Assembly (NCBI RefSeq): GCF_029889905.1 | Contig: NZ_JARANZ010000002.1 | Location: 124,001 to 188,000, forward strand | Reading direction: 5' to 3' | DNA: 64,000 nucleotides | Origin: Chromohalobacter sp. 11-W | Lineage (GTDB): Bacteria > Pseudomonadota > Gammaproteobacteria > Pseudomonadales > Halomonadaceae | In this document: positions 17,174-45,038 of the stretch, piece by piece | Layout of the letters: each line of letters begins with the position of its first letter | Position numbering within the stretch: the first letter of the stretch is position 1 | Notes under the pieces: generated by a model | Database searches by the model: none | What the model was told of the DNA's origin: nothing | The model's input: the letters and a program-made list of their open reading frames with translations, nothing else | Program-made: the position numbers and the translations under genes

Positions 17174-18412
17174 CTAGTTCAAATACTGGAACAGGGACAT
17201 CTGTTGAATATCGGCGAACGACTTCTGTGATGCCTGCAGCCCTACCTGGCTGAGCATATAATCGGAAATCGCCGAGTTGTAATCCAGATCTACCAGATCG
17301 GAGCGCGTCTGCTCGTAGGCAATCTCGCGGTTGCCGCCGACGTCGTCCAAGGCGTTCAACTCGTTCATGCGTGCGCCGACCGAGGCTCGCGTGGTCAGCA
17401 CATTATCCAGCGAGGCATCCAACTTGCGGCTCGCGGTAGACAAGGTGTTGTCCAATGCCGCCTGGTCGGCATCGGTCTCGACGGGCTGACGCAGAGCATT
17501 GATGGTATCGCCGATGGTCTTGAACAGGCTGGCCTGCTGCTCATCCATATCGCCACCCGGCGTAACGTTCAACGAATCACCGTCTGCCGGCTCGCCTTCC
17601 ATCGTCAGCGCCAGACCACCGAATTCGATGGTCTCGCCATCGGTGTACTCAGCCGTTACCGTGTCACCGGTGTTGGTATTGGTCGCAGTATATTCAAGAT
17701 CACCAGCGCCATTGTCAGCAAACGAGATTTCGTACGCATCACCATAGCCCGCGGCGGCGGCATCACGAACATCCGGCCCCGTGAAGGTCATGCTCCCCGT
17801 ATTGCCTTCACCGGCTTCGGCGATATATTCGCTACCCGACGAGAATTTCATGAACACGTCGGAACCCGTATCGCTGGTGTTCATCGAGCGCTCGGCATCG
17901 ATCTTCTGTTTCTTGACGCCCTGATCGCCTTCATAACCGATGGTATCGACATTGTCGCCGGCATCGGTGCGCGAGAAGGCCTTGGCATTATCCTGATAAC
18001 CGCTGAACAAGTAGGTGCCATTACCATCGGTGGTGTTGCCAAGCCCGATCAACGTTTCATAGGCACCCTCGAGATCGGAGGCCAGCGACTCGCGGTCGGC
18101 GTCGCTCAAGGTACCGTTACCGGCTTGTACGACCAGTGATTTAGCCGAACCGATAGCATCGCTGACGCTATTAAGGACGCTTTCCTCTTGGCTAAGAGAG
18201 TTACGCGCGGTCACTCGGCTACTTTCTTGTTGCGCATTGACGGCCAGCGACTGCGATACCCCCACCGCACGCGAGGCGGCACGCGGGTCATCGGAAGGAT
18301 TCACCACGCGCTTGCCGGAAGCGATCTGTTGACCGACATCCGCGAAATCGGCTTGCTGGCGGTTCATCGCCGAAACGCCTTGCTCGTACATCGTCACGGT
18401 GCTGATACGCAT
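17174..18412 (-). CDS. flgL: Hook-filament junction protein FlgL (HAP3)
   Basis: 412 aa. The flagellin-like N-terminus MRISTVTMYEQGVSAMN and C-terminus (YNSAISDYMLSQVGLQASQ) are conserved, and the acidic central domain is variable. It joins HAP1 to the filament. The order is flgK then flgL, with a 122-bp gap that holds no evident promoter match, so co-transcription with flgK is likely. Confidence 0.95.
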   Translation of the reverse strand: MRISTVTMYEQGVSAMNRQQADFADVGQQIASGKRVVNPSDDPRAASRAVGVSQSLAVNAQQESSRVTARNSLSQEESVLNSVSDAIGSAKSLVVQAGNGTLSDADRESLASDLEGAYETLIGLGNTTDGNGTYLFSGYQDNAKAFSRTDAGDNVDTIGYEGDQGVKKQKIDAERSMNTSDTGSDVFMKFSSGSEYIAEAGEGNTGSMTFTGPDVRDAAAAGYGDAYEISFADNGAGDLEYTATNTNTGDTVTAEYTDGETIEFGGLALTMEGEPADGDSLNVTPGGDMDEQQASLFKTIGDTINALRQPVETDADQAALDNTLSTASRKLDASLDNVLTTRASVGARMNELNALDDVGGNREIAYEQTRSDLVDLDYNSAISDYMLSQVGLQASQKSFADIQQMSLFQYLN

Positions 18413-30178: not shown

Positions 30179-30214
30179 GCAACGTTTATGTTGCTTTTTG
30201 GCTTGCATAGCAAC
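30179..30214. promoter_or_regulatory. Likely autoregulatory operator of hipBA
   Basis: Three 5-bp half-sites: GCAAC (30179-30183), GTTGC (30190-30194) and GCAAC (30210-30214). The first two form a perfect dyad around GTTTAT; the third is 31 bp from the first, about three helical turns. This is a common layout for cooperative HipB binding. The sequence is unlike the E. coli TATCC site. Confidence 0.5.
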
Positions 30215-30247
30215 AAATATGTTTCTATATTGCCTTTAAAGAAACTC

Positions 30248-30580
30248 ATGAGTTGCCAAGCGATCATGTCATTACACGACCAAATCAAGCATCGGCGCCA
30301 AGCGCTAGGACTCACGCAGGCCGACATGCGGTCACGCATCGGTATGCCTCGCCAGCAATATCAACGGCTAGAAGCCGGCGGCAATCCACGCTTGGATTCC
30401 CTCAGCCTCGTCGCCGCCGGCCTCAATGCCGAGCTGATGCTCATTCCTCAGGATAAACTCTACGCCGTCAAAGCCGTGCTTGAAGGCCAGCGCGGTGTTG
30501 CCGAGCCCCCTCTCGATGCCGACCCCTGGCAAGGCCTGCTTGACGATCACGACACCTCGTCACACGGGCACGACTCATGA
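30248..30580 (+). CDS. hipB: HipB-type XRE-family antitoxin
   Basis: About 110 aa. An HTH of the Cro/CI type is at HDQIKHRRQALGLTQADMRS, GMPRQQYQRLEAGGNPRLDS and LVAAGLNAELMLIP. It binds the kinase HipA and represses the operon. The start may be the ATG at 30248 or 30266; neither has a strong ribosome-binding sequence. The stop overlaps the hipA ATG by 4 nt. Confidence 0.85.
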   Translation: MSCQAIMSLHDQIKHRRQALGLTQADMRSRIGMPRQQYQRLEAGGNPRLDSLSLVAAGLNAELMLIPQDKLYAVKAVLEGQRGVAEPPLDADPWQGLLDDHDTSSHGHDS

Positions 30581-31857
30581 AGACCGAATCTGTCTCAGTG
30601 CTTGAAATCAGCTTGCATGGTACGCGCGTCGGCCACCTAGTCGGCTATCAAGGGGGGCGTAACGTCATGATCTTCGATACAGCATTTCGCGAGGATCCCC
30701 AGCGCCCCACCCTGACACTGACAACGCATCCCGACTTCCCCCATGCCGACCGTCTCATGATATCCCCATGGATACGGCGCCAACGGTTGCATCCCTTCTT
30801 TTCCAACATGCTGCCCGAAGGGACGTTACGCGACTGGCTTGCACGTTCCTTGAAGATTCATACCGACAACGAGTTTCCCCTTATCGCCCAGCTCGGCCAT
30901 GACTTGCCGGGGGCCATCATAGCCACACCTCTGCCCGCCAACGAAGTCCCCGCCCACGTGCTCGAATATCGCACCAGCGTCACCCCTATCCCTCGTTCAG
31001 TTCCCCACGGGCAAGGGTTTTCGCTGGCAGGCGTGCAGATGAAGTTTTCGATGTACGAACGCGAGGGAGCATTTCAACTCGGCCGACACGACACGCTAGG
31101 CGACTGGATTATCAAGACACCCTCCACGCGCCATCGCAGCGTCCCCGCCAATGAATATACCGCGATGCGCCTGGCCGAAGCCGCAGGCGTCGAAGTACCC
31201 GAAATACGGCTGGTGCCCCTCTCGGCCCTCAAGGCGCTGCCCGACCTGCCTCTTCCCAATGAACAGTGGGCCTACGCGATTCGACGTTACGACCGGCAGT
31301 CGGCACATCGGATACATGCTGAGGACATGGCCCAGGTGCTGGCGCAATATCCGCACGAAAAATACACCGGCGCGAATTACGAAACACTTGGCAAGCTATT
31401 CACGCGCTTCACTCAGGATGGTTTGCGCAGCGCCCAGGAACTCGCCCGCCGCCTGCTCATCAACCTGCTGCTTGCCAACGGCGATGCGCATCTCAAGAAC
31501 TGGAGCTTTCTATACCCGGATGACGACTTGCCGGTGCTAGCGCCTGCCTACGATATCGTTTTCACACAGGCGTATATCGACAACGAGCAAGAAATCGCGC
31601 TCAACCTCAATGGCCAGAAAAACTGGTACCGCCTCGACTGGGATGATTTCCGCGCCTGGAGCCAACATATCGGCGTTCCCTGGCACGGCATCCGCATCGC
31701 GCTCGACGACACGCTACAACGTGTTCGGGAAACATGGCCCGAGCTTCTTCAAGACGCACCGATGCACCCCGGACACAAGCGCAAGTTGATCGTTCATTGG
31801 CGCCGGCTGCCCCATAGCTGGGGGCTTGAGGCACTTCGGGAGTGCCCTCTACCTTAA
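30577..31857 (+). CDS. hipA: HipA-family serine/threonine kinase toxin
   Basis: 426 aa, full length. The conserved motifs are all present: SLAGVQMKFSM (about 149-159), DWIIKTPS, NEYTAMRLAEAAGVEVPEI, the catalytic loop NGDAHLKNWS (301-310, Asp303 and Asn308) and the metal-binding Asp in LAPAYDIV (326). HipA phosphorylates an aminoacyl-tRNA synthetase (GltX in E. coli) and causes growth arrest. The catalytic residues look intact, so it should be active. It is paired with the upstream hipB. Confidence 0.92.
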   Translation: MKTESVSVLEISLHGTRVGHLVGYQGGRNVMIFDTAFREDPQRPTLTLTTHPDFPHADRLMISPWIRRQRLHPFFSNMLPEGTLRDWLARSLKIHTDNEFPLIAQLGHDLPGAIIATPLPANEVPAHVLEYRTSVTPIPRSVPHGQGFSLAGVQMKFSMYEREGAFQLGRHDTLGDWIIKTPSTRHRSVPANEYTAMRLAEAAGVEVPEIRLVPLSALKALPDLPLPNEQWAYAIRRYDRQSAHRIHAEDMAQVLAQYPHEKYTGANYETLGKLFTRFTQDGLRSAQELARRLLINLLLANGDAHLKNWSFLYPDDDLPVLAPAYDIVFTQAYIDNEQEIALNLNGQKNWYRLDWDDFRAWSQHIGVPWHGIRIALDDTLQRVRETWPELLQDAPMHPGHKRKLIVHWRRLPHSWGLEALRECPLP

Positions 31858-33611: not shown

Positions 33612-34151
33612 ATGATGATGGATTTTCAGCAACACACACCGCCCAAGCAGCCCGATTTCGAGGTGATGGCATCGGCTTACGCCACAGCGATGGGGTTGGG
33701 CAACGCTCTGCGTGCAACCGATGCGCTTTCTCACCAACCGGCGACTGCCGATACTCAATCGGCAGTCGCCAAGTTACGCGCTGTATGCGAGGAAACACGC
33801 AAAGACTCTCTCGAGCTGGCTGAATTGCTGTGGGCCACCTACCGGATTCTAGAAACCGAGGTCTCCGGTATCCCCCCAAGTTCAGCGCCCTTTCAAAGAA
33901 TGCTCGACGAAATGCGCGAAAGCGAGGCCGAGATGGACAGGGGCATGGCTGAGCACCAAATTATTCGCGACATTATGATGCCATTGCGCCGCGCGACAGC
34001 AAAAGCTCGCTCCAATGCCAGCCTCGTAGTAAACCTGATTCGGCAAAAGACGCCAGGGGCACAGTCCAGCGTGCCTTCCACGACAGATCCGGAAGGGCTG
34101 CGAGAGCTTGCACGCGTCAACACCCGGCTTCTCCGAGAAAAGTGCGGATAG
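33612..34151 (+). CDS. Unrecognised 179-aa protein, probable antitoxin partner of the downstream YafO-like toxin
   Basis: No known domain is recognised. It appears mainly helical and Ala/Glu/Arg-rich, with no TM and no visible HTH or Phd/YefM pattern. GGAGGAT lies about 8 nt before the ATG. The stop codon is 8 nt before the downstream ATG, the tight antitoxin-first order of TA operons such as yafNO. YafN is about 97 aa and of the Phd/YefM type; this protein is longer and does not resemble it. The function is inferred from context only. Confidence 0.6.
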   Translation: MMMDFQQHTPPKQPDFEVMASAYATAMGLGNALRATDALSHQPATADTQSAVAKLRAVCEETRKDSLELAELLWATYRILETEVSGIPPSSAPFQRMLDEMRESEAEMDRGMAEHQIIRDIMMPLRRATAKARSNASLVVNLIRQKTPGAQSSVPSTTDPEGLRELARVNTRLLREKCG

Positions 34152-34159
34152 AATCCGGC

Positions 34160-34591
34160 ATGCACAAGTCCGCTCAGATCGACACGCACCCCCTCTTTGA
34201 TCGGGCATTGAGTGACTTGTCGGAAAGGTATCCTTCCCTTCAGCAGGATATTCTGAATAGCTTCTACACTTACGTTTCGTCTGAAACCGCCTACTTGCCA
34301 GAAACGTTCGGTCGTGACTCGATCTTCAACGAACCATACCTGGCACAACGGGCAAAACTGAGGCATCTGCACATCTGCCTGCCGCCGAGCACGTTCGATG
34401 TCAACCGGTGCCAACAAGACCGAAAAAACCCACTAGGCGACCCTGAGAACGACGTGTTTTTGGTGTATGTTCGCCACGAGTTTTACGAGCACCGATTTTT
34501 GATCGTGGCGCTACTCCAACCCGATGCTCATGCGCTGGCGCGCGACACCGAGGTAATGAAGCAACTCGGCTACATCGCCCAGGAATTTTAA
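34160..34591 (+). CDS. YafO-family mRNA interferase toxin
   Basis: 143 aa. The C-terminal 95 residues follow E. coli YafO closely in pattern: LPETFGRDSIFNEPYLAQ, the LRHLHICLPP strand, VFLVYVRHEFYEHRFLIVAL, and LQPDAHALARDTEVMKQLG. YafO is a ribosome-dependent endoribonuclease. About 40 extra helical residues lie at the N-terminus. The ATG at 34160 is used; a GTG at 34142, inside the upstream gene, would add 6 residues. An IS3-type remnant starts right after the stop. Confidence 0.75.
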   Translation: MHKSAQIDTHPLFDRALSDLSERYPSLQQDILNSFYTYVSSETAYLPETFGRDSIFNEPYLAQRAKLRHLHICLPPSTFDVNRCQQDRKNPLGDPENDVFLVYVRHEFYEHRFLIVALLQPDAHALARDTEVMKQLGYIAQEF

Positions 34592-35626: not shown

Positions 35627-35869
35627 TTATGTATCACTCGCCTCCCAACGTCTTACCGCCACCATCGACATGAACTTGCCCTCCTCACTGAACGTCAACC
35701 TAAACACGCCGTGTGCGCCATCCGGCGTAACGATGCGGCACAGTGCCGTGGCGGGAAAGCTCACCCGGCGCCCATCCACGCTGGTAGCGATCACGGTTTG
35801 CATGGCGCCTTCGTAATGGTAGCGACACGTCTCAAGGGAAAGGTCGAGCATGATATCCAGCGACGGCAT
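35627..35869 (-). CDS. DUF2835 family protein
   Basis: 80 aa from the ATG at 35869. The pattern LSLETCRYHYEGAMQTVIAT, DGRRVSFPATALCRIVTPDG, HGVFRLTFSEEGKF matches the small DUF2835 family of gammaproteobacteria (unknown function). The frame is open to 36067, but that extension would overlap the fliC promoter and add 66 residues not found in the family. It is divergent from fliC. Confidence 0.8.
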   Translation of the reverse strand: MPSLDIMLDLSLETCRYHYEGAMQTVIATSVDGRRVSFPATALCRIVTPDGAHGVFRLTFSEEGKFMSMVAVRRWEASDT

Positions 35870-35949
35870 GGCGAGCGCAAGCTCCGGGTGAATGAAGAGG
35901 CGCCAAGTATACCCAGCCACGGCGCCTGAAAAAATTTGCAATTCACCCC

Positions 35950-35976
35950 TAAAGCAAATCTCCCCTGCGCCGATAA
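35950..35976 (+). promoter_or_regulatory. Sigma-28 (FliA) promoter of fliC
   Basis: TAAAGCAA, 11-nt spacer, GCCGATAA. The -10 is perfect and the first five bases of the -35 (TAAAG) are exact. It lies 91 bp upstream of the fliC ATG. Confidence 0.9.
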
Positions 35977-36067
35977 ATGAGGTAACGGCCAACGGCGCCG
36001 TTGTGGCACGCCCCGGAATTACCGACGGCAGGCCAATGGAGCCCAAACAGAGAGGAAGGAACATCAC

Positions 36068-37231
36068 ATGTCAGTGATCAATACGAACATCACGGCCATG
36101 ATCGGCCAGCAGAACCTGAGCCAGTCACAGAACGCGCTGTCCACCTCCATGGAGCGTCTGTCTTCAGGCCTGCGCATCAACAGCGCCGCCGACGATGCTG
36201 CCGGTCAGGCCATCGCCAACCGCATGAGCAGCCAGATCAACGGCCTCAGCCAGGCACAGAGCAACGCCAACGACGGTATCTCCGTCGCCCAGACCACCGA
36301 AGGCGCCCTGAACCAGGTCAACGACAACCTTCAGCGCGTGCGTGAACTGACCGTTCAAGCCGAAAACGGCACCAACAGCCAGGAAGATTTGAACTCCATT
36401 CAGGACGAAATCAATCAGCGCCTGAGCGAAATCGATCGCATCTCCGAGGAGACCAGCTTCAATGGCGTCGACGTCCTCGCCAGCGATCAGGAACTGTCCA
36501 TTCAGGTGGGTTCTGAAGATGGCCAGACCATCAGCATGAACCTGCAAGAAATCAGCTCCGAGACGCTGGGGCTGGGTGACTTCAACGTCAATGCTGTTGC
36601 TGCAACTGCCGGTGGACAAACCCTCGCGGCGGGCGACACCATTACCGTTGATGGTACTGAATTCACCGCTAGTGCTTCGCCATCCACTGCATCTGGCGCT
36701 ACGGAAGTTGGTACCGGCGCCATTGGTATTGCTGCGGACGTTACTGGTACACCAGTTGAGAATGGAACTAACTCAATCGTCAGCGATGCAGATGGCAATG
36801 CCTACATCAAAAACGAGAATGGCGGCGAAACCAATTACTACGCGGCTGAGCTAACGGCGACGGAAGGTGACGGCTCTAACGCAGCCACAGTTAGCTATAC
36901 CGTAGCGGACGATGCCGAACCCGCTAACTACGTCACAGAAGATGCCTCCACTATCGACGACTCGCCGCTTGCTTCACTCGACTCTGCCATTGGCAAAGTC
37001 GATAGCCAGCGCTCCGAATTGGGTGCCTTGCAGAACCGCTTTGACTCCGCCATCACCAACCTGAGCACCACCGAGACTAACCTCACCTCCGCTCGCTCGC
37101 GCATCGAAGATGCCGACTACGCAGATGAAGTCTCCAACATGACGCGTAACCAGATCCTGCAGCAGGCCGGCACTTCCGTTCTGTCTCAGGCCAACCAGTT
37201 GCCGCAGAACGCCCTGTCACTGCTGGGCTAA
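36068..37231 (+). CDS. fliC: Flagellin FliC
   Basis: 387 aa. The conserved D0/D1 ends are present: SVINTNITAMIGQQNLSQSQ, ALSTSMERLSSGLRINSAAD at the N-terminus and ARSRIEDADYADEVSNMTRN, QQAGTSVLSQANQLPQNALS at the C-terminus. The central 120 residues (about 175-295) are Thr/Ser/Ala-rich and acidic, suited to surface exposure and O-glycosylation. Codon use shifts there towards GCT/ACT/GTT compared with the ends. AGAGGAAGGAA is the ribosome-binding site. A terminator follows at 37270. Confidence 0.97.
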   Translation: MSVINTNITAMIGQQNLSQSQNALSTSMERLSSGLRINSAADDAAGQAIANRMSSQINGLSQAQSNANDGISVAQTTEGALNQVNDNLQRVRELTVQAENGTNSQEDLNSIQDEINQRLSEIDRISEETSFNGVDVLASDQELSIQVGSEDGQTISMNLQEISSETLGLGDFNVNAVAATAGGQTLAAGDTITVDGTEFTASASPSTASGATEVGTGAIGIAADVTGTPVENGTNSIVSDADGNAYIKNENGGETNYYAAELTATEGDGSNAATVSYTVADDAEPANYVTEDASTIDDSPLASLDSAIGKVDSQRSELGALQNRFDSAITNLSTTETNLTSARSRIEDADYADEVSNMTRNQILQQAGTSVLSQANQLPQNALSLLG

Positions 37232-37269
37232 CCACCAGTCCCTAGCGACAGCTTGCGCAGCAACAACGA

Positions 37270-37296
37270 AGCGGGCCCACTCGGGCCCGCTTTTTC
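37270..37296 (+). terminator. Intrinsic terminator of fliC
   Basis: AGCGGGCCC, loop ACTC, GGGCCCGCT followed by a T-tract, 38 bp after the fliC stop. The modification operon therefore probably has its own promoter in 37297-37418; a loose candidate (TTGAGA near 37361, TATAGT near 37381) has a spacer that is too short to be convincing. Confidence 0.92.
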
Positions 37297-37418
37297 AGTT
37301 TTTCAACCTACCCACCACAAAAGCCATAAAAGTCCACTCCCCAGCGAGCTTTTCTCACCTTTGAGATCGCCACAGCACTTTATAGTGATTGCATTAACCA
37401 CCTCATCATGCGATCCCT

Positions 37419-40271
37419 ATGTCCAAAAAACGCAATCGCCGTCACGCAAGCACGAATGACACGCCCACCCTGGCGCAGGCTCGCAAGCAAACCCAGCGTG
37501 CTCCCTCGGACCCTGGTGCCTGGCTAACACTGGGGCAGCTATTGGTCGGGCAGAAAGACTGGCAGAACGCCAGAGAGGCACTTGAACAGGCACAAAGCTT
37601 GCGACCAGACAACGCCGAGCAAAAAGCATGGCTTGGGCATGTCGCATATAAACAAAACCGCACACAAGACGTACTTGATTATTTACATGACGCATTATCG
37701 CAACGCCCGCAGTTAGTGATCGGGCTTGTGACGTTAGCCAAGCTTCATATTGATCGCGGCGAGTTTCAGAAAGGCCTGGAATATGCACAACAGGCCTATG
37801 AGATATCCCCCCAAGACATTCCCACGATAGACACGCTGGCGAGTGCCCTTAGTAATCTCTACCGCTACGAAGAAGCGTTTGACCTTTACTGTCACCTAAC
37901 GAAGCTGGTACCGCAAGATTTCTCGTCTTGGAACAATGCCGGCAACATGCTGAGAGACCTGAGGCGTCTCAATGAGTCTTACACCTATTATGAGCAGGCG
38001 TACAAGGTAAGCCACCACCCTACTCCCTACTCCAACCACCTAACGGCTTTGCACTATGATCCCAACGTAACTCGGGAAGAGCTCATGGCATTTGCCAAAT
38101 CCTGGGAAGCACGCTTCACGCCAGCTAGCCACCTTGTACCATTACGACCAGAACGCCCCAATGCAGCTACTGCCCAAAAATTACGTCTTGGCCTGCTATC
38201 AGACGGCTTTCGCAAGCACCCCGTAGGCAAGATGATTACCCGCTGCTTGGAGTACCTTTCGCAGGGGCAATTCGAGCTTTATTGCTATACCACAAGCGAT
38301 GCAGTCGATGGCACCACTAAGCGTATTCAGCACTGTGCGCAGCATTGGCAGCCCATTCGCCACCTTGGCGACGAGGAATTTGCTCAGCAGGTTCGCGACG
38401 ACGAAATCGACATTCTTATCGACCTCTCGGGCCATAACACGGGGTCGAGAATGCGAGCGATTGCCATGCAGCCGGCACCATTGCTCGTCAAATGGGTTGG
38501 CGGGCTGATCAATACGACAGGTGTGCAAGCTATTGACTACCTGATCAGCGATCATGTCGAGACGCCAGAAGGCGAAGATGGATACTACACCGAGAAGCTC
38601 ATTCGCCTACCGGATGATTACATCGTCTTCGACCCGCCCGAAAAACTGCCTGAATTAAGCGAACTGCCGGCCAAGCAAAACGGCTATATTACCCTGGCGT
38701 GCTTCAACAACCCCACCAAGCTCAATGATGTCACGCTCAAGCACTGGGCGAGCATCATGCATGAGCTGCCCAATGCTCGGTTGTTGCTCAAGGGGCGTCC
38801 TTATACCAGCGAAAGCTTCTGCGAGCGCCTGTATGCCACACTTGAAGCTGAGGGCATCGCTCGCGAGCGGTTGATCCTCGAAGGCCCCGGTAACAATTAT
38901 GAGATGCTGGAAGCCTATAACCGCGCGGATATCTCACTTGACCCCTGGCCTTACTCCGGCGGGCTGACGACGTGTGAATCGTTCATCATGGGCGTACCCG
39001 TGGTGACGCTCCCCGGCCCGACCTTTGCCGGCCGGCATAGCGCCACTCACCTCGTTCATGCCGGCATGCCGGAGCTAGTGGTCAATAGCTGGGAAGAATA
39101 CCGCGCCCGCGTGATCGAGCTTGCCAGCGACCTTGATAGCCTCGGCACCATCCGCCAGCACCTACGCGACGTGCTGTTGCAATCCCCCGTGTGTGACGGC
39201 CCAAGATTCGCCAAACATTTCACCGATGCCATGCGCGCCATCTGGCAGCGTTACTGTGACGATAAGCCCCCCACCGCCCTCACCTTCAACAAGGAGGGCG
39301 AGGCCCGGTTTGAGGATGAATACGCGCCAGTGGAAATCCACTACGCGGAAGCGCCAGAAGAAGATGCCGAGTTTCAATGGCAATTCGAAGGTAAACTCAT
39401 CGCCGTGGACAACGGCGGGCAACTGCTCGAAAGCGAAGTCATACGCCAACTGCTTCAGCGTGACGCGCTCGAACTCATCGCCTTCGATCCCAGCAGCCAA
39501 GCGCCGGATACCTCGCTCAAGCAACACAAGGGGGTGCACTACTATCCCAGCGCCACACTCGGCGACGGCCAGCCGGGGCAACTGCATGCCTGCCTCGACC
39601 CCAAGCTAAGCGCCACTCTGGCGCCTCTGGGGGATGAGTACCAGCCGGAAGCCATTCGCAAAGGCAGCCAGGTACTTACCCAACTACCTCTCAATACCGT
39701 TGCGCTGGATAGTATCCAAGGCCTGCCCGCCATCGACTGGCTGGTACTGGACGACCTGAACGACGCTACCACGATTCTCAACAACAGTACCCAAGCGCTG
39801 AAAGACACCCTGCTGCTCCAGGTGAAGGTCGCCTTTCAGCCCACGCACGAACGCCAACCCAGCCTAGCGGAGCTTCAGCACTGGGCCAGCCGTAACGGCT
39901 TCCGCTTCTACCGACTACACGAGCCTCAGCACCGCAGTCACCTCCCAGAGGATGTGCCGGAAACGCAGCGCCAAGCCACCGAACTGACAAGCGCGGATGC
40001 ACTGCTGCTGCCCAGTCACGCCCGAATGGAAGCGCTTTCTGATAATCAACGGACTCGACTCGCTTTTCTGCTGCATACGGTTTATGGAGTTAAAGATGTG
40101 GCTTATTCAAGCTTGTTAAAAAACAACAGCACAAAAGCAAGAAACTACATAGAAGAAGAAGGTCTAGCGAAAAAAAGTCATTTTACGGGAGAACATATCC
40201 CAGATCACAGCCTGGCATCTCCCGACGATACAATTGCTAGCCAAATCGACGAAATCATGAACAACCTGTAG
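37419..40271 (+). CDS. TPR/SPINDLY-type O-glycosyltransferase (GT41) with degenerate FkbM-like C-terminus; probable flagellin glycosyltransferase
   Basis: 950 aa. Residues 1-210 are TPR repeats (GAWLTLGQLLVGQKDWQNAR, IGLVTLAKLHIDRGEFQKGL). Residues about 240-620 are an O-GlcNAc-transferase-like catalytic region: LLSDGFRKHPVGKMI (the His corresponds to the catalytic His of OGT), DILIDLSGHNTGSRM, LACFNNPTKLND, DPWPYSGGLTTCESFIMGVP and GRHSATHL. Residues about 650-900 resemble an FkbM methyltransferase (AVDNGGQLLESEVIRQLL, LIAFDPSSQ, LHACLDPKLSATLAPL, VKVAFQPTHERQPSLAEL), but the SAM-binding GG-loop and the DVxG catalytic block are altered. It is directly downstream of fliC and first of a four-gene operon. 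The sugar donor is unknown. Confidence 0.85.
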   Translation: MSKKRNRRHASTNDTPTLAQARKQTQRAPSDPGAWLTLGQLLVGQKDWQNAREALEQAQSLRPDNAEQKAWLGHVAYKQNRTQDVLDYLHDALSQRPQLVIGLVTLAKLHIDRGEFQKGLEYAQQAYEISPQDIPTIDTLASALSNLYRYEEAFDLYCHLTKLVPQDFSSWNNAGNMLRDLRRLNESYTYYEQAYKVSHHPTPYSNHLTALHYDPNVTREELMAFAKSWEARFTPASHLVPLRPERPNAATAQKLRLGLLSDGFRKHPVGKMITRCLEYLSQGQFELYCYTTSDAVDGTTKRIQHCAQHWQPIRHLGDEEFAQQVRDDEIDILIDLSGHNTGSRMRAIAMQPAPLLVKWVGGLINTTGVQAIDYLISDHVETPEGEDGYYTEKLIRLPDDYIVFDPPEKLPELSELPAKQNGYITLACFNNPTKLNDVTLKHWASIMHELPNARLLLKGRPYTSESFCERLYATLEAEGIARERLILEGPGNNYEMLEAYNRADISLDPWPYSGGLTTCESFIMGVPVVTLPGPTFAGRHSATHLVHAGMPELVVNSWEEYRARVIELASDLDSLGTIRQHLRDVLLQSPVCDGPRFAKHFTDAMRAIWQRYCDDKPPTALTFNKEGEARFEDEYAPVEIHYAEAPEEDAEFQWQFEGKLIAVDNGGQLLESEVIRQLLQRDALELIAFDPSSQAPDTSLKQHKGVHYYPSATLGDGQPGQLHACLDPKLSATLAPLGDEYQPEAIRKGSQVLTQLPLNTVALDSIQGLPAIDWLVLDDLNDATTILNNSTQALKDTLLLQVKVAFQPTHERQPSLAELQHWASRNGFRFYRLHEPQHRSHLPEDVPETQRQATELTSADALLLPSHARMEALSDNQRTRLAFLLHTVYGVKDVAYSSLLKNNSTKARNYIEEEGLAKKSHFTGEHIPDHSLASPDDTIASQIDEIMNNL

Positions 40272-40286
40272 AGCCATTGAGACATT

Positions 40287-40859
40287 ATGCTACCGCCTAT
40301 TAATGATCAGCCAGAAAGCGAAACCCCAACACCCAACTCGGCTACGAGTCATAGCAAGGAAGAAACTGAAAGTCAGTTTCTATCGCTTTTAAAGACCGTA
40401 AAGAAGAAAGAGCTCGCAGCTTTAGCAAAAATTTTGATGCCCTACTTAGCAGAGGCTGAAATGCGCCAATTACGCATTTGGGGAGACAAAAGCAAACTTC
40501 ACTTAGACCGCGCCACGATCTCTGTCAATGACCTGCTTGCCAACACCCGCTCTGGACATATAACGATTGAGGAAGAATGCTTTTTTGGTCATCGCTGCAT
40601 GCTGCTTACCGGTACTCACGACTATTCAAAAACCGGTCATGAACGTCTAACGGCAGTCCCCGATAGTGGCCGAGATATAGTTATAAAAAGAGGGGCTTGG
40701 CTCGGCTCTGGTGTTACTGTCTTGGGACCAGCAATCATTGGTGAAAACGCTGTTGTAGCTGCCGGAAGTTTGGTTACAAGCGATGTACCACCAAATACTA
40801 TTGTTGCCGGACGTCCTGCTCACCCCGTGAAGAATATTGACGGCACGCCTTATGAATAA
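40287..40859 (+). CDS. Hexapeptide-repeat (LbH) O-acyltransferase
   Basis: 190 aa. A helical N-terminal part of about 80 residues precedes a left-handed beta-helix: ITIEEECFFGHRCMLLTGTH, IVIKRGAWLGSGVTVLGPAI, IGENAVVAAGSLVTSDVPPN, IVAGRPAHPVK. The His in GTHDY is the expected acetyl-transfer base of the LacA/maltose-acetyltransferase group. It likely O-acetylates a sugar, presumably of the flagellin glycan given the operon. 15 nt separate it from the GT41 gene and it overlaps the sulfotransferase by 8 nt. Confidence 0.82.
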   Translation: MLPPINDQPESETPTPNSATSHSKEETESQFLSLLKTVKKKELAALAKILMPYLAEAEMRQLRIWGDKSKLHLDRATISVNDLLANTRSGHITIEEECFFGHRCMLLTGTHDYSKTGHERLTAVPDSGRDIVIKRGAWLGSGVTVLGPAIIGENAVVAAGSLVTSDVPPNTIVAGRPAHPVKNIDGTPYE

Positions 40860-41679
40860 ACCAACGAAAAACCTCATCTTCACTGTCACACATGGTAGAA
40901 CAGGCACTACCATGCTAACTGAAGCTTTCAGCATCTTCGCAGACACATGCTCAGTTCACGAACCGGAGCCTAACTATGCGACGGCACTTCCTAGAGTAAA
41001 AGAAAATCCTAGGTATGCGCTATATTTCCTGGACAAAAAACTCAAAGAAATTGAACATACAACTTCTTCAAATTATGTTGAGACAAGCAATGTTTTTGGG
41101 AAGGGATTCCTCCTCCCGCTATTGAGACAGGGAATATTTCCTAACCTCATATTCCTTAATCGCGACTTCAGGGAGACAGCAAAGAGCCTCTACAAGCGAG
41201 GTAGCACTCCCATGCGCACCAAGCGCGGCGCTCACTTTTCAGCCGATCCGAGGGTGCCTGGTAGCCTGCCTATTTTTTCACCCGACACTCTTACGGACTA
41301 CCAACTCTGCTACTGGGGAGTACTAGATTCCTATTTTAGACAGATTGAAGCAAAAAAAATATACGACCAAGAGGGCAAAAGATACCACTGGGCCACAGCA
41401 GACGACTTTCATGACTTTGATTTTACAATATCGATTGGCAGTCATTTTGGCTTGCAGGTTGAAAACCAGGACTCCGCCAGAGCCGCGCACTCTGAAATAG
41501 CTTCCAAACATCATAACCCAAACCCTCAGGAGAGAAAAATTCACCAAACCAGCCTTCTGAAGGAGGAACTTGAGGTGATCGACAGAGTGGCTTTTTTCAA
41601 CCCTCCTTTCATAGATGAAGTCTTGTCTTCTAGCTTTATTTCCAGCGAAATAACATCAGAGATTGCCAATTTAAAATAA
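40852..41679 (+). CDS. P-loop sulfotransferase-like protein
   Basis: 275 aa from the ATG at 40852, which overlaps the previous stop. The 5'-phosphosulfate loop HGRTGTTML (14-22) and a 3'-phosphate-binding segment (NLIFLNRDFRETAKSLYKRG) are in the right order for PAPS-dependent carbohydrate sulfotransferases. A WG..D..FRQIEA region and a C-terminal charged helix follow. Codons are AT-rich compared with cysC downstream. It is probably not a Stf0 or heparan-type enzyme in the strict sense; the acceptor is inferred to be the flagellin glycan from position. Confidence 0.7.
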   Translation: MNKPTKNLIFTVTHGRTGTTMLTEAFSIFADTCSVHEPEPNYATALPRVKENPRYALYFLDKKLKEIEHTTSSNYVETSNVFGKGFLLPLLRQGIFPNLIFLNRDFRETAKSLYKRGSTPMRTKRGAHFSADPRVPGSLPIFSPDTLTDYQLCYWGVLDSYFRQIEAKKIYDQEGKRYHWATADDFHDFDFTISIGSHFGLQVENQDSARAAHSEIASKHHNPNPQERKIHQTSLLKEELEVIDRVAFFNPPFIDEVLSSSFISSEITSEIANLK

Positions 41680-41701
41680 CCAATAAAACAGGTATTCCGG
41701 C

Positions 41702-42301
41702 ATGACAAACATGCCAGTTTGGCACACACACAAAACCCACCGCGCCCACCGTGAGCGACTCAACGGTCACAGAGCGTGTCTGCTTTGGTTCACGGGGCTA
41801 AGCGGTTCGGGAAAATCCACCATCGCCGGCCTGGTGGAAGAAAAACTGCATACCATGGGTAAGCGCACGTATCTGCTTGATGGCGACAACGTGCGCCATG
41901 GTTTGAACCAGGACCTCGGTTTTTCCGACCAGGACAGAGTCGAGAACATTCGCCGCATCGGTGAAATGTCATGGCTGTTCGTCGATGCGGGCATGATCAC
42001 GCTGGCGGCCTTCATCTCCCCCTTTCGTGTCGACCGCGATGCCGTGCGGGAGCGAATGGAGGCAGGCGACTTCGTCGAAGTATTCATCGATACCCCGCTT
42101 GCCACCTGTGAGCAGCGTGATCCCAAAGGCCTGTATCGGCGCGCACGTGAAGGAGAAATCAAGGACTTTACGGGGATCGACTCCCCCTATGAGCCACCCG
42201 AGGCGCCCGAGCTGCATATCGTGAATGATGGCATCGCACCGGAAGAGGCAGCAGCACAGGTCATCCGCCACTTGCAAGCCAATGGCTACCTCGGTCAGTA
42301 A
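41702..42301 (+). CDS. cysC: Adenylyl-sulfate kinase CysC
   Basis: 199 aa. P-loop GLSGSGKST (32-40), [38 protein letters not shown] and [20 protein letters not shown] are diagnostic. It phosphorylates APS to PAPS, the sulfate donor for sulfotransferases. It is 22 nt after the sulfotransferase gene, not next to cysDN, so it looks dedicated to local sulfation rather than sulfate assimilation. Its GC-rich codon use differs from the AT-rich gene before it. Confidence 0.95.
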
Positions 42302-42454
42302 AACGTTCAGACTTGTCATGAGACGAGCCCGACAAGCTCAGGAAGTACATTCAAACCTATTCTTCCATCTCCTGAATTCAAGTTTTCAGGCCCCCTGCCG
42401 ATTAGGGGTATAAGGCAGCAGCCTAATATCTCATGAACCCATGATGTGATGCTT

Positions 42455-43462
42455 ATGAATGATAGCTCTCCAAAAAACGATGCTCCGTTGTCCGCTACAC
42501 TACGAAACGCCACACACCTGCTTTTTATCGCGGCATCCATGGGAGTTTTGACTGCATGTCACATGCTTTTCTTTGGTATCAGCGATATGATAGCTCTGTT
42601 CCTTTTTATCGTTACAGTCTATTTGATATTCCGCTCGGTACTCGAATTGCGTATGGGTAGTCGAAAAGCAATGAGTGTGTACTTCAAAAAAGATTCTTTT
42701 TTCACATCATATCTTTCGCAAGATAAGGCATGGAGTCAGTTAATTTTTTCTATAATTATTGCTGCGTTTCTATCACTAGCATTCATGGTGGTATTAAAAG
42801 GTATGTCTCTGTCGCATGGATTTTTGTCAATGCTAATCATAGTTGGCATTGCAAGCCTTTTCATTCGAGCTATCAACTTCAGCACTATCAAGGAAACCGT
42901 TGGTGAAAACACCACGGGCACCGTCTCACGCCATGCCATATCGATTATTTCCACCGTCATGACAGCATTTTGGCTTAACTTACTCCTCTCCATGATTCTA
43001 AGTGCTCATGATCTATTTACATTTCTCAGCAGCAGCATCGATTTCTCATCTTTCATAAATTATGCCGAGACTCGTTCTATCGACAAGACTATCGATAACG
43101 AGGCGTCAAGATTCTTCGTCAACCTTTACGTCATCATCAACGCTTTCAAGATTGCCATGGCCAATGAGATCATGACCGCGCTCGATATAAGCTACCAAGA
43201 AAAAGCTCAATACTTCTATATTTTTTATCTCTCCACGCTTGTCATGAACATGGTAAAATTATTCGGCTTCTCACTCACTTTAATATTCATACAAAAAACC
43301 TTTGAAGAACATATCGTACCTATTATTTTAGCAGCATGGCGAAAAACACAACCACTTCGTCAAAAGTTTTCCAAAATACCACCTAATAAAACTGGCAATT
43401 TTATTAGAAAGGCAAAACACCTTAACAAGAAAAGAGGGCAGGGAGAAAAACATGAATACTAA
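42455..43462 (+). CDS. Unrecognised multi-pass membrane protein, AT-rich
   Basis: 335 aa with six or seven hydrophobic helices (THLLFIAASMGVLTACHMLF, IALFLFIVTVYLIFRSVLEL, LIFSIIIAAFLSLAFMVVLK, MLIIVGIASLFIRAI, IISTVMTAFWLNLLLSMIL, FYIFYLSTLVMNMVKLFGFS). The C-terminal tail is strongly basic and cytoplasmic-looking. I recognise no family. The base composition is clearly lower in GC than the rest of the window, suggesting horizontal origin. It overlaps the small lipoprotein gene by 11 nt. The start could also be at 42446 or 42449. Confidence 0.75.
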   Translation: MNDSSPKNDAPLSATLRNATHLLFIAASMGVLTACHMLFFGISDMIALFLFIVTVYLIFRSVLELRMGSRKAMSVYFKKDSFFTSYLSQDKAWSQLIFSIIIAAFLSLAFMVVLKGMSLSHGFLSMLIIVGIASLFIRAINFSTIKETVGENTTGTVSRHAISIISTVMTAFWLNLLLSMILSAHDLFTFLSSSIDFSSFINYAETRSIDKTIDNEASRFFVNLYVIINAFKIAMANEIMTALDISYQEKAQYFYIFYLSTLVMNMVKLFGFSLTLIFIQKTFEEHIVPIILAAWRKTQPLRQKFSKIPPNKTGNFIRKAKHLNKKRGQGEKHEY

Positions 43463-44451: not shown

Positions 44452-44784
44452 TTAGCTAACCAGAGTCGCTAGCTTTGCCAGCACGTCATCCATAACCTCC
44501 TGCGGAATGCTCTCCAGCCGCCGTCCCTGACGGGCCTCAATGTCCAAGGTACGCACCTGGCTGCACAAGACAACGCCGGTGGTGGTAGTCCCCGCATCAG
44601 CCAGCGACACCGTGAAGCCTCGGGAGCGGGCGAAGCCACCACCGTTAGTGATCGGCGCGACCAAAGGCGTGCCCATGGCGATATTGAACGCGTCCGGCGA
44701 CACGATCAGCACCGGACGCATACCTTGCTGTTCATGACGCCGAGTGGGGTTGAGCGAAACGAGATAGATGTCACCGCGCCGCAT
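44452..44784 (-). CDS. mazF: MazF/PemK-family endoribonuclease toxin
   Basis: 110 aa. The fold motifs RRGDIYLVSLNPTRRHEQQG, RPVLIVSPDAFN, LVAPITNGGG and TGVVLCSQVRTLDIEARQGR are all present, including the RP..V and SQ.R(T)LD(I) catalytic strands. It is closest to the ChpB/PemK subgroup. It cleaves mRNA at short motifs. The ATG overlaps the mazE stop (TAATG). Confidence 0.93.
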   Translation of the reverse strand: MRRGDIYLVSLNPTRRHEQQGMRPVLIVSPDAFNIAMGTPLVAPITNGGGFARSRGFTVSLADAGTTTTGVVLCSQVRTLDIEARQGRRLESIPQEVMDDVLAKLATLVS

Positions 44785-45038
44785 TACAGCAGTTCACGAC
44801 CGACGGGGGCGGCCTCCAGCCACTCGCGTTCGCCAGCAGACATATCAGCCGTGGTATCGCACTGGGCCAGCAGTTCCTCAAGGGAGTACTGCGGCTTGGC
44901 CGGTTCCACGATCAAGCGTCCGTGGTCGACTTCGATCTCGACTTGAGAGCCCACGTGAAGGTTCAATTGATCGAGAAGCGTACGCGGCACTGACATCATG
45001 ACAGAACCGCCGACACGACGAAGATTGGTAGTACTCAT
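44784..45038 (-). CDS. mazE: MazE/AbrB-family antitoxin
   Basis: 84 aa. The SpoVT/AbrB swapped-hairpin domain (LRRVGGSVMMSVPRTLLDQL, VGSQVEIEVDHGRLIVEPA) is followed by an acidic C-terminal MazF-binding tail. AGGAGG stands 5 nt before the ATG. A perfect TATAAT on the minus strand (45070-45075) in an A/T-rich dyad region gives the likely autoregulated promoter. Confidence 0.92.
   Translation of the reverse strand: MSTTNLRRVGGSVMMSVPRTLLDQLNLHVGSQVEIEVDHGRLIVEPAKPQYSLEELLAQCDTTADMSAGEREWLEAAPVGRELL

Follow-up and report, generated by a model that had tools for sequence, protein, structure and literature searches.

We analysed a stretch of 64,000 nucleotides from Chromohalobacter sp. 11-W (contig NZ_JARANZ010000002.1, positions 124,001 to 188,000; here called the window), whose genome of 3.66 Mb belongs to Halomonadaceae, a family that includes Halomonas, Litchfieldella, Salinicola and Kushneria. 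Directly behind the flagellin gene fliC and its terminator lie genes for a glycosyltransferase (GT) of family GT41 with tetratricopeptide repeats (TPR), a left-handed beta-helix (LbH) O-acyltransferase, a predicted sulfotransferase (ST) and the adenosine 5′-phosphosulfate (APS) kinase CysC. An initial annotation of the sequence had given this order, with gaps of 15 nt (GT-LbH), -8 nt (LbH-ST) and 22 nt (ST-CysC), and it proved exact. The evidence presented here points to a flagellin glycosylation locus in which sulfation is probably a tailoring step.

The genes behind fliC

The features of the locus, all on the plus strand, are the following:

35950..35976, plus strand: sigma-28-type flagellar promoter upstream of fliC, TAAA-N15-GCCGATAA; the sole match in the window, where 0.02 were expected
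36068..37231, plus strand: fliC, flagellin, 387 amino acids (aa), with Flagellin_N and Flagellin_C domains (Pfam and NCBIfam)
37268..37293, plus strand: intrinsic terminator downstream of fliC, with a stem of 11 bp and a T tail
37419..40271, plus strand: TPR-GT41 glycosyltransferase, 950 aa, with TPRs to about residue 215, GT41 at about 246-630 and an FkbM-like middle domain at about 650-917
40227..40259, plus strand: C-terminal motif of GT, residues 937-947 (DTIASQIDEIM), a predicted docking peptide for LbH
40287..40859, plus strand: LbH hexapeptide O-acyltransferase, 190 aa (Hexapep Pfam match; relatives among PDB maltose and galactoside acetyltransferases)
40852..41679, plus strand: ST, predicted sulfotransferase of the type using 3′-phosphoadenosine 5′-phosphosulfate (PAPS), 275 aa (ATG start; fold of an AlphaFold2 model; invariant loops)
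41702..42301, plus strand: CysC, APS kinase, 199 aa (APS_kinase, PF01583, 233 bits; apsK equivalog domain, TIGR00455, above cut-off; tree)

The promoter was recognised by the flagellar sigma-28 consensus. fliC is the only flagellin gene detected genome-wide, as the second Flagellin_N match falls in an FlgL-like open reading frame (ORF) at 17174-18412. A DUF2835 ORF on the minus strand (35627-36067) is divergent from fliC; if it begins at the first possible start codon, it covers the fliC promoter and borders directly on fliC, though the actual start codon may be an internal one. A sigma-70 scan upstream of the GT gene did not find a promoter. ST was taken to start at the ATG at 40852, which is conserved among its relatives, and not at the TTG at 40837, and it overlaps LbH by 8 nt. 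With glycan genes beside the flagellin gene, the locus has the character of a flagellin glycosylation island; nucleotide-sugar biosynthesis genes, a usual but not universal feature of such islands, were not found among the genes at 36068-42301.

GT belongs to family GT41 (OGT/SPINDLY), as it has a Glyco_transf_41 match of 145 bits (cut-off 25) behind its TPRs; the nearest PDB relatives of this part are the bacterial TPR protein 5djs and SPINDLY (244 bits), followed by XcOGT (148 bits). The middle domain has no Pfam match of its own, and we call it FkbM-methyltransferase-related because a second copy in genome G041 aligns with it and matches Methyltransf_21. LbH is a hexapeptide O-acyltransferase by its Pfam repeats and PDB matches, and its H111 aligns with a histidine of maltose transacetylase 2ic7 that presumably has a catalytic-type role.

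The predicted sulfotransferase and its distribution

The attempt to identify ST by sequence alone (Pfam, NCBIfam, PDB and profile-profile comparison) failed, and the fold search decided its assignment. Neither the window ST nor that of G047 reaches the curated cut-offs of Pfam Sulfotransfer_1 to _4 and, consequently, they represent a new sequence family. An AlphaFold2 model made from the alignment of 14 ST proteins has a mean pLDDT of 91.6 and a pTM of 0.88, and in it a sulfotransferase fold spans most of the chain. In a VIA-align search, the model matched the CurM sulfotransferase 4gbm (Z 13.7 over 210 aligned residues, spanning model residues 1-265, root mean square deviation 4.0), TPST1/2 (12.9-13.7; TPST1 13.7), Stf9 (12.4), NDST1 (11.4) and 3-OST (about 11). 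Sulfotransferases by title, with Teg12 counted among them, fill 49 of the 50 rows; the exception is kinase 1y63 in row 35 (Z 9.9). Similarly, 14 of the 15 Foldseek matches at E≤0.001 are sulfotransferases, the remaining one being nucleoside kinase 8puu.

The loops that had originally suggested a sulfotransferase have withstood comparison. HGRTGTTML corresponds to residues 14-22 of ST, and both T13-H-G-R-T-G-T19 and R104-x7-S112, which resembles a 3′-phosphate site, are invariant in the 14 aligned proteins, window included. We take the loop to be the 5′-phosphosulfate site and the R104-x7-S112 spacing to mark the 3′-phosphate site. E37, also invariant and 21 residues past R16, is a candidate catalytic base by the spacing in tyrosylprotein sulfotransferases. 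On this confident model, ST is predicted to be a PAPS-type sulfotransferase of a new sequence family.

Relatives of ST were detected in 3 of 97 related genomes and in only 10 of 250 genomes of the family, the window genome being counted in both cases. From GTDB genomes, 13 loci were obtained; 8 were already among the 10 family genomes, and the other 5 were additional (Halomonas sp. LBP4, Microbulbifer thermotolerans, M. litoralis, Ectothiorhodospira mobilis and an alphaproteobacterial metagenome-assembled genome, L189). In the pooled set of 15 distinct loci, window included, LbH adjoins ST without exception, and fliC-GT41 adjoins the pair in 14, including three species outside Halomonadaceae; in Kushneria, the pair is inverted and lies between two flagellin genes, but is not separated from fliC-GT41. 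This constancy exceeds chance. It also bears on the expectation that, if the proposal were wrong, relatives would keep sulfotransferase and cysC together away from fliC: the ST gene accompanies fliC in those 14 loci, and a search with the window ST of seven stretches that hold cysC relatives (L093-L095, L164-L166 and L177) gave no match.

The glycosyltransferase locus across the family

When the 250 family genomes were searched with GT, matches were obtained in 114. The survey covered 87 of these loci, leaving out 24 genomes with the middle domain only and 3 in which the GT41 match is weak (G032, G173 and G256); such a GT is absent from G009, which was also examined. fliC lies at most 450 nt upstream of the GT or middle-domain gene in 84 of the 87 loci (the exceptions are G016, G235 and G222). 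GT often extends 170-890 residues past its GT41 and middle domains, with exchangeable methyltransferases, glycosyltransferases or sulfotransferases in the additional part.

Sulfotransferases of several families are fused to GT or stand beside it at 36 of the 87 loci, according to a local two-round profile scan; two of these genes, that of G145 and the Kushneria gene of G144, are on the opposite strand. By Pfam, Sulfotransfer_3 is found at the locus in G049, G041, G165 and G103, Sulfotransfer_4 in G003, G029 and G157, and Sulfotransfer_2 in G004 and G279. Sulfotransfer_1 is found in G054, G234 (25.8 bits) and G159 (21.2 bits, slightly below the cut-off of 22). In six genomes, proteins that join TPRs, a Sulfotransfer_3 domain above the Pfam cut-off and the middle domain replace TPR-GT41, and GT41 was not found in these proteins:

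L170:2995-8010 (G250): TPR-Sulfotransfer_3-FkbM-like fusion; likewise in L176, L171, L168, L172 and L169 (the six genomes being G250, G182, G246, G222, G191 and G104)

In G016, the TPR-sulfotransferase is a separate gene between fliC and GT. Across the 250 genomes, 17 of 127 Sulfotransfer_3 genes lie within 6 kb of the locus, where about 0.4 would be expected under uniform placement (G111 is counted among the 17 by proximity to the locus). This enrichment and the diversity of families at a single spot indicate repeated recruitment of sulfotransferases to the fliC-GT locus, where different genomes offer a natural set of exchanged tailoring modules in a constant position. In G276 (L126:3071-8912), there is a fliC-GT41-Sulfotransfer_4-type-methyltransferase-like fusion, with a CysNC-like protein encoded 95 nt downstream; its CysN part looks shortened, as if the APS kinase half alone had been kept.

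The C-terminal motif of GT (11 residues, [DETSN][TN][IV][AS]xx[ILM][DE]x[LI][LMI]) follows the presence of LbH. It was found in 12 of 12 surveyed loci with LbH and in none of 60 GT41 loci without it (p 6.5e-14, a value that is merely descriptive because the pattern was written after the sequences had been viewed). In ten LbH-ST loci, it lies within the last 30 residues of GT, behind a variable linker, and, among the 957 ORFs of at least 150 aa in the same stretches, only ten carry it in that position. It is also present in the GTs of L183, L185, L186 and L188 (the last with V for I), and is retained in the short GTs of Kushneria (751 aa) and Ectothiorhodospira (662 aa), which have no middle-domain match. 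In G027 and G183, where LbH is present and ST was not found, a second FkbM-like domain is fused behind the motif, and the GT gene of G183 is interrupted by a transposase gene. Perhaps the motif serves as a docking peptide for LbH; this could account for the coupling between the flagellin glycosyltransferase and an acyltransferase encoded separately.

The source of PAPS is more variable. APS kinase genes lie within about 5 kb of ST at only 3 of the 15 loci, those of the window, G223 and L183 (L186 is cut by the contig end), and on this count the idea that CysC is an obligatory member of the set was rejected. Halomonas beimenensis, Litchfieldella anticariensis and Aidingimonas lacisalsi, for example, have fliC, GT, LbH and ST but no CysC next to them. 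In the genus of the window, a fliC-side CysC was found in 5 of 10 genomes searched (G000, which is the window genome, G003, G004, G005 and G008), and the five proteins form one clade (support 97/83). Its sister group (joint support 100/99) consists of standalone CysC proteins, among them those of G036, G049 and G011; in these three genomes, the ones scanned, a priming sugar transferase adjoins the standalone gene, accompanied in G036 by ManC. The CysC relatives of G268 and G149 have a sulfotransferase-like gene at a distance of no more than about 4 kb. The fliC-side APS kinases of G120, G276 and Halomonas sp. LBP4 are placed elsewhere in the tree (LBP4 on a long branch, G120 in an unsettled position), and this spread over several branches suggests that such kinases were probably recruited more than once.

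In addition to CysC, the window genome encodes a CysNC fusion as its second APS kinase. The neighbours of this gene are a cysD-like gene, a permease gene of the sulfate/citrate type, and Polysacc_synt_2 and Wzy genes; two Sulfotransfer_3 genes are found at a distance of about 12 kb. The region (G000:C33:290852-306263) is a probable sulfated-polysaccharide cluster. In Halomonas llamarensis (L182:9713-13414), a cysD-like ORF, CysNC and a CysQ-like ORF lie about 2 kb past LbH-ST (cysD and cysQ were named by eye); it is possible that they form a set for PAPS synthesis and PAP clearance.

Other neighbours of the locus were also observed. The ORF at 42446-43462 (338 aa) encodes a membrane-protein-like product without a Pfam or NCBIfam family match; a sigma-28-like -10 element, GCCGATTA, stands ahead of it at 42397, and it may be a motility or flagellar gene. 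In addition, three modules of the toxin-antitoxin type flank fliC, namely HTH and HipA-like genes (30188-31857), a YafO-like toxin (34142-34591) and MazE/MazF (44452-45038).

Probable sulfation of flagellin and its alternatives

The window GT resembles FlmG of Caulobacter, described in 2020 in eLife as a flagellin O-glycosyltransferase made of TPR and GT-B parts, in being a soluble modular TPR-GT. Flagellin is bound by the TPRs of FlmG and is glycosylated in the cytoplasm before its export (PMC7591256). By contrast, FlmG has 596 residues and uses pseudaminic acid, and the passages on it name no sulfotransferase, acyltransferase or CysC (PMC7591256). The flagellin islands of Enterobacteriaceae and Geobacillus (PMC4875605, PMC5109656) share with this locus their variable glycan genes and flagellin-dedicated tailoring enzymes, theirs being acetyl-, methyl- and formyltransferases. 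They differ in carrying the sugar-biosynthesis genes that the window lacks, while many tailoring domains are here fused to GT, and the strings sulf and sulph do not occur in the main text of either survey. A sulfated glycan on the swimming filament of a halophile, predicted here, has a parallel in the sulfated N-glycans of Halobacterium glycoproteins, archaellins included, although that system is described as archaeal, N-linked and lipid-carrier based, and its filament is unrelated (PMC11980604). Finally, the cysD-cysN-permease-cysC-sulfotransferase cluster of Campylobacter jejuni HS:19 also places PAPS genes beside a putative sulfotransferase, but near the capsule locus and, in the account consulted, without flagellin as a proposed target (PMC8743553). 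In the open-access literature, no report of bacterial flagellin sulfation was found among the matches listed (titles and abstract openings). This kind of locus is known; what appears to be new is its sulfation, the fusion or docking of its tailoring modules and the ST family.

Gene order, its conservation, the predicted fold of ST and the co-occurrence of motif and LbH are direct observations. From these, we infer substrates, order of steps, docking and chemistry as follows. The TPR part of GT would grip newly made flagellin in the cytoplasm, a role proposed by analogy with FlmG that rests on the adjacency of fliC in 84 of 87 loci. The GT41 part would then attach a sugar to Ser/Thr of the flagellin surface domain, and LbH, recruited through the C-terminal peptide, would O-acylate (probably O-acetylate) this sugar. 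ST would move sulfate from PAPS onto the sugar, CysC, where present, would boost PAPS, and the finished flagellin would be exported. Modification in the cytoplasm fits, because PAPS is cytoplasmic. We consider glycosylation, O-acylation and sulfation before export the probable function of the locus. The initial annotation had proposed an acetylated and sulfated flagellin glycan with a dedicated PAPS supply; tailoring by GT41, LbH and a protein of PAPS-type fold, the linkage to fliC and the recurrence of sulfotransferases agree with it, but CysC falls outside the conserved set.

Several results weigh against this reading. ST has no sulfotransferase family match in Pfam or NCBIfam and no sulfotransferase match among PDB sequences (with a profile of 9 rows), its profile aligns weakly with the fused Sulfotransfer_3 domains in hhalign (probability 36%, E 4e-4), and the TM-scores of its 15 best Foldseek matches are 0.38-0.48, with large deviations. 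A joined model of the GT tail and LbH, in which the motif is drawn as a helix (50-64), was of too low a quality to judge their contact (mean pLDDT 60.9). The rarity of ST in the family counts on the same side, as do L189, where LbH-ST adjoins ATP-grasp and glutamine-amidotransferase (peptidase C26) genes and neither flagellin nor GT was found within 7-kb flanks, and the 12 of 15 ST loci at which APS kinase was not seen nearby.

Other explanations have to be set beside sulfation of the glycan. It is unlikely that ST sulfates the flagellin polypeptide directly, on Tyr, Ser or Thr, with LbH and GT acting separately on the glycan. The fold of ST is as near to tyrosylprotein sulfotransferases as to any, but CurM, Stf9, NDST and 3-OST reach comparable scores, and the acceptor therefore cannot be read from the fold; moreover, ST is paired with a sugar-type acyltransferase in every locus and with GT in all but one. 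For the six relatives in which a TPR-sulfotransferase occupies the place of TPR-GT41, direct protein sulfation is likelier. We regard as similarly improbable that LbH and ST act on another product, such as a soluble sugar donor, a polysaccharide or a small molecule, and were merely co-inherited with fliC. The isolated pair of L189 and the polysaccharide genes that adjoin relatives of CysC would agree with this, but the adjacency to fliC-GT41 persists across genera and outside the family, the same GT occurs in fusions with other sulfotransferases, and the tail motif of GT tracks LbH. Least likely of all, ST would be inactive or would use its P-loop-like fold for phospho or other transfer; its want of a sequence-family match and the two kinases among its structural matches could be read in this way, but nearly all VIA-align rows are sulfotransferases and both the loop and R-x7-S are invariant.

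A further explanation, less probable than not but of more weight than these, is that CysC serves general sulfate assimilation and stands behind ST by accident. In G005 and G008, it is retained with a methyltransferase-like domain only, no local sulfotransferase being found, and in G004, G008 and G120 no APS kinase was detected other than the one beside fliC. Furthermore, CysH lacks iron-sulfur cysteine pairs, presumably the usual mark of APS reductases, in 8 of 8 genomes examined. By contrast, the search with the window CysC gave no APS kinase match in 31 of 97 relatives, and in four genomes APS kinase went undetected (G001 and G007 by the CysC search, G109 and G146 by the Pfam model) while a CysH-type gene without those cysteines is present, which suggests that assimilation may not need the kinase; the probable recruitment of fliC-side kinases from several branches also argues against accident. 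APS kinase copies, broken ones included, lie within 5 kb of 9/36 sulfotransferase loci and 2/51 others (Fisher p 0.005) or, outside the genus of the window, 6/33 and 0/46 (p 0.004); when the count is restricted to intact kinases (at least 200 bits), the association falls to 6/36 versus 2/51 (p 0.05) and 3/33 versus 0/46 (p 0.07), and all these p values are optimistic because the loci are related. In these counts, G049, G157 and G235 contribute split or partial copies only (that of G157 on the opposite strand), and adding the N-terminal TPR-sulfotransferases and the opposite-strand G145 gene raised the sulfotransferase loci from 28/87 to 36/87 and changed p from 4.5e-4 to 0.005. The second APS kinase of the window genome also weakens the initial proposal of a dedicated PAPS supply.

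For Halomonadaceae as a whole, we tentatively propose that sulfated flagella may be made by a modular cytoplasmic TPR scaffold that reads flagellin and carries its tailoring enzymes as fused domains or binds them through a C-terminal peptide of 11 residues. The sulfation step may have arisen repeatedly, through enzymes of unrelated sulfotransferase families; among these are TPR-sulfotransferases, for which flagellin itself may be the substrate. In some cases, a local source of PAPS, akin to the one in polysaccharide clusters, may have been gained as well. The hosts are culturable environmental bacteria and are thus amenable to testing. If the proposal is true, the filaments of these halophiles would carry a strong and fixed negative charge, in parallel with the sulfated archaella of haloarchaea.

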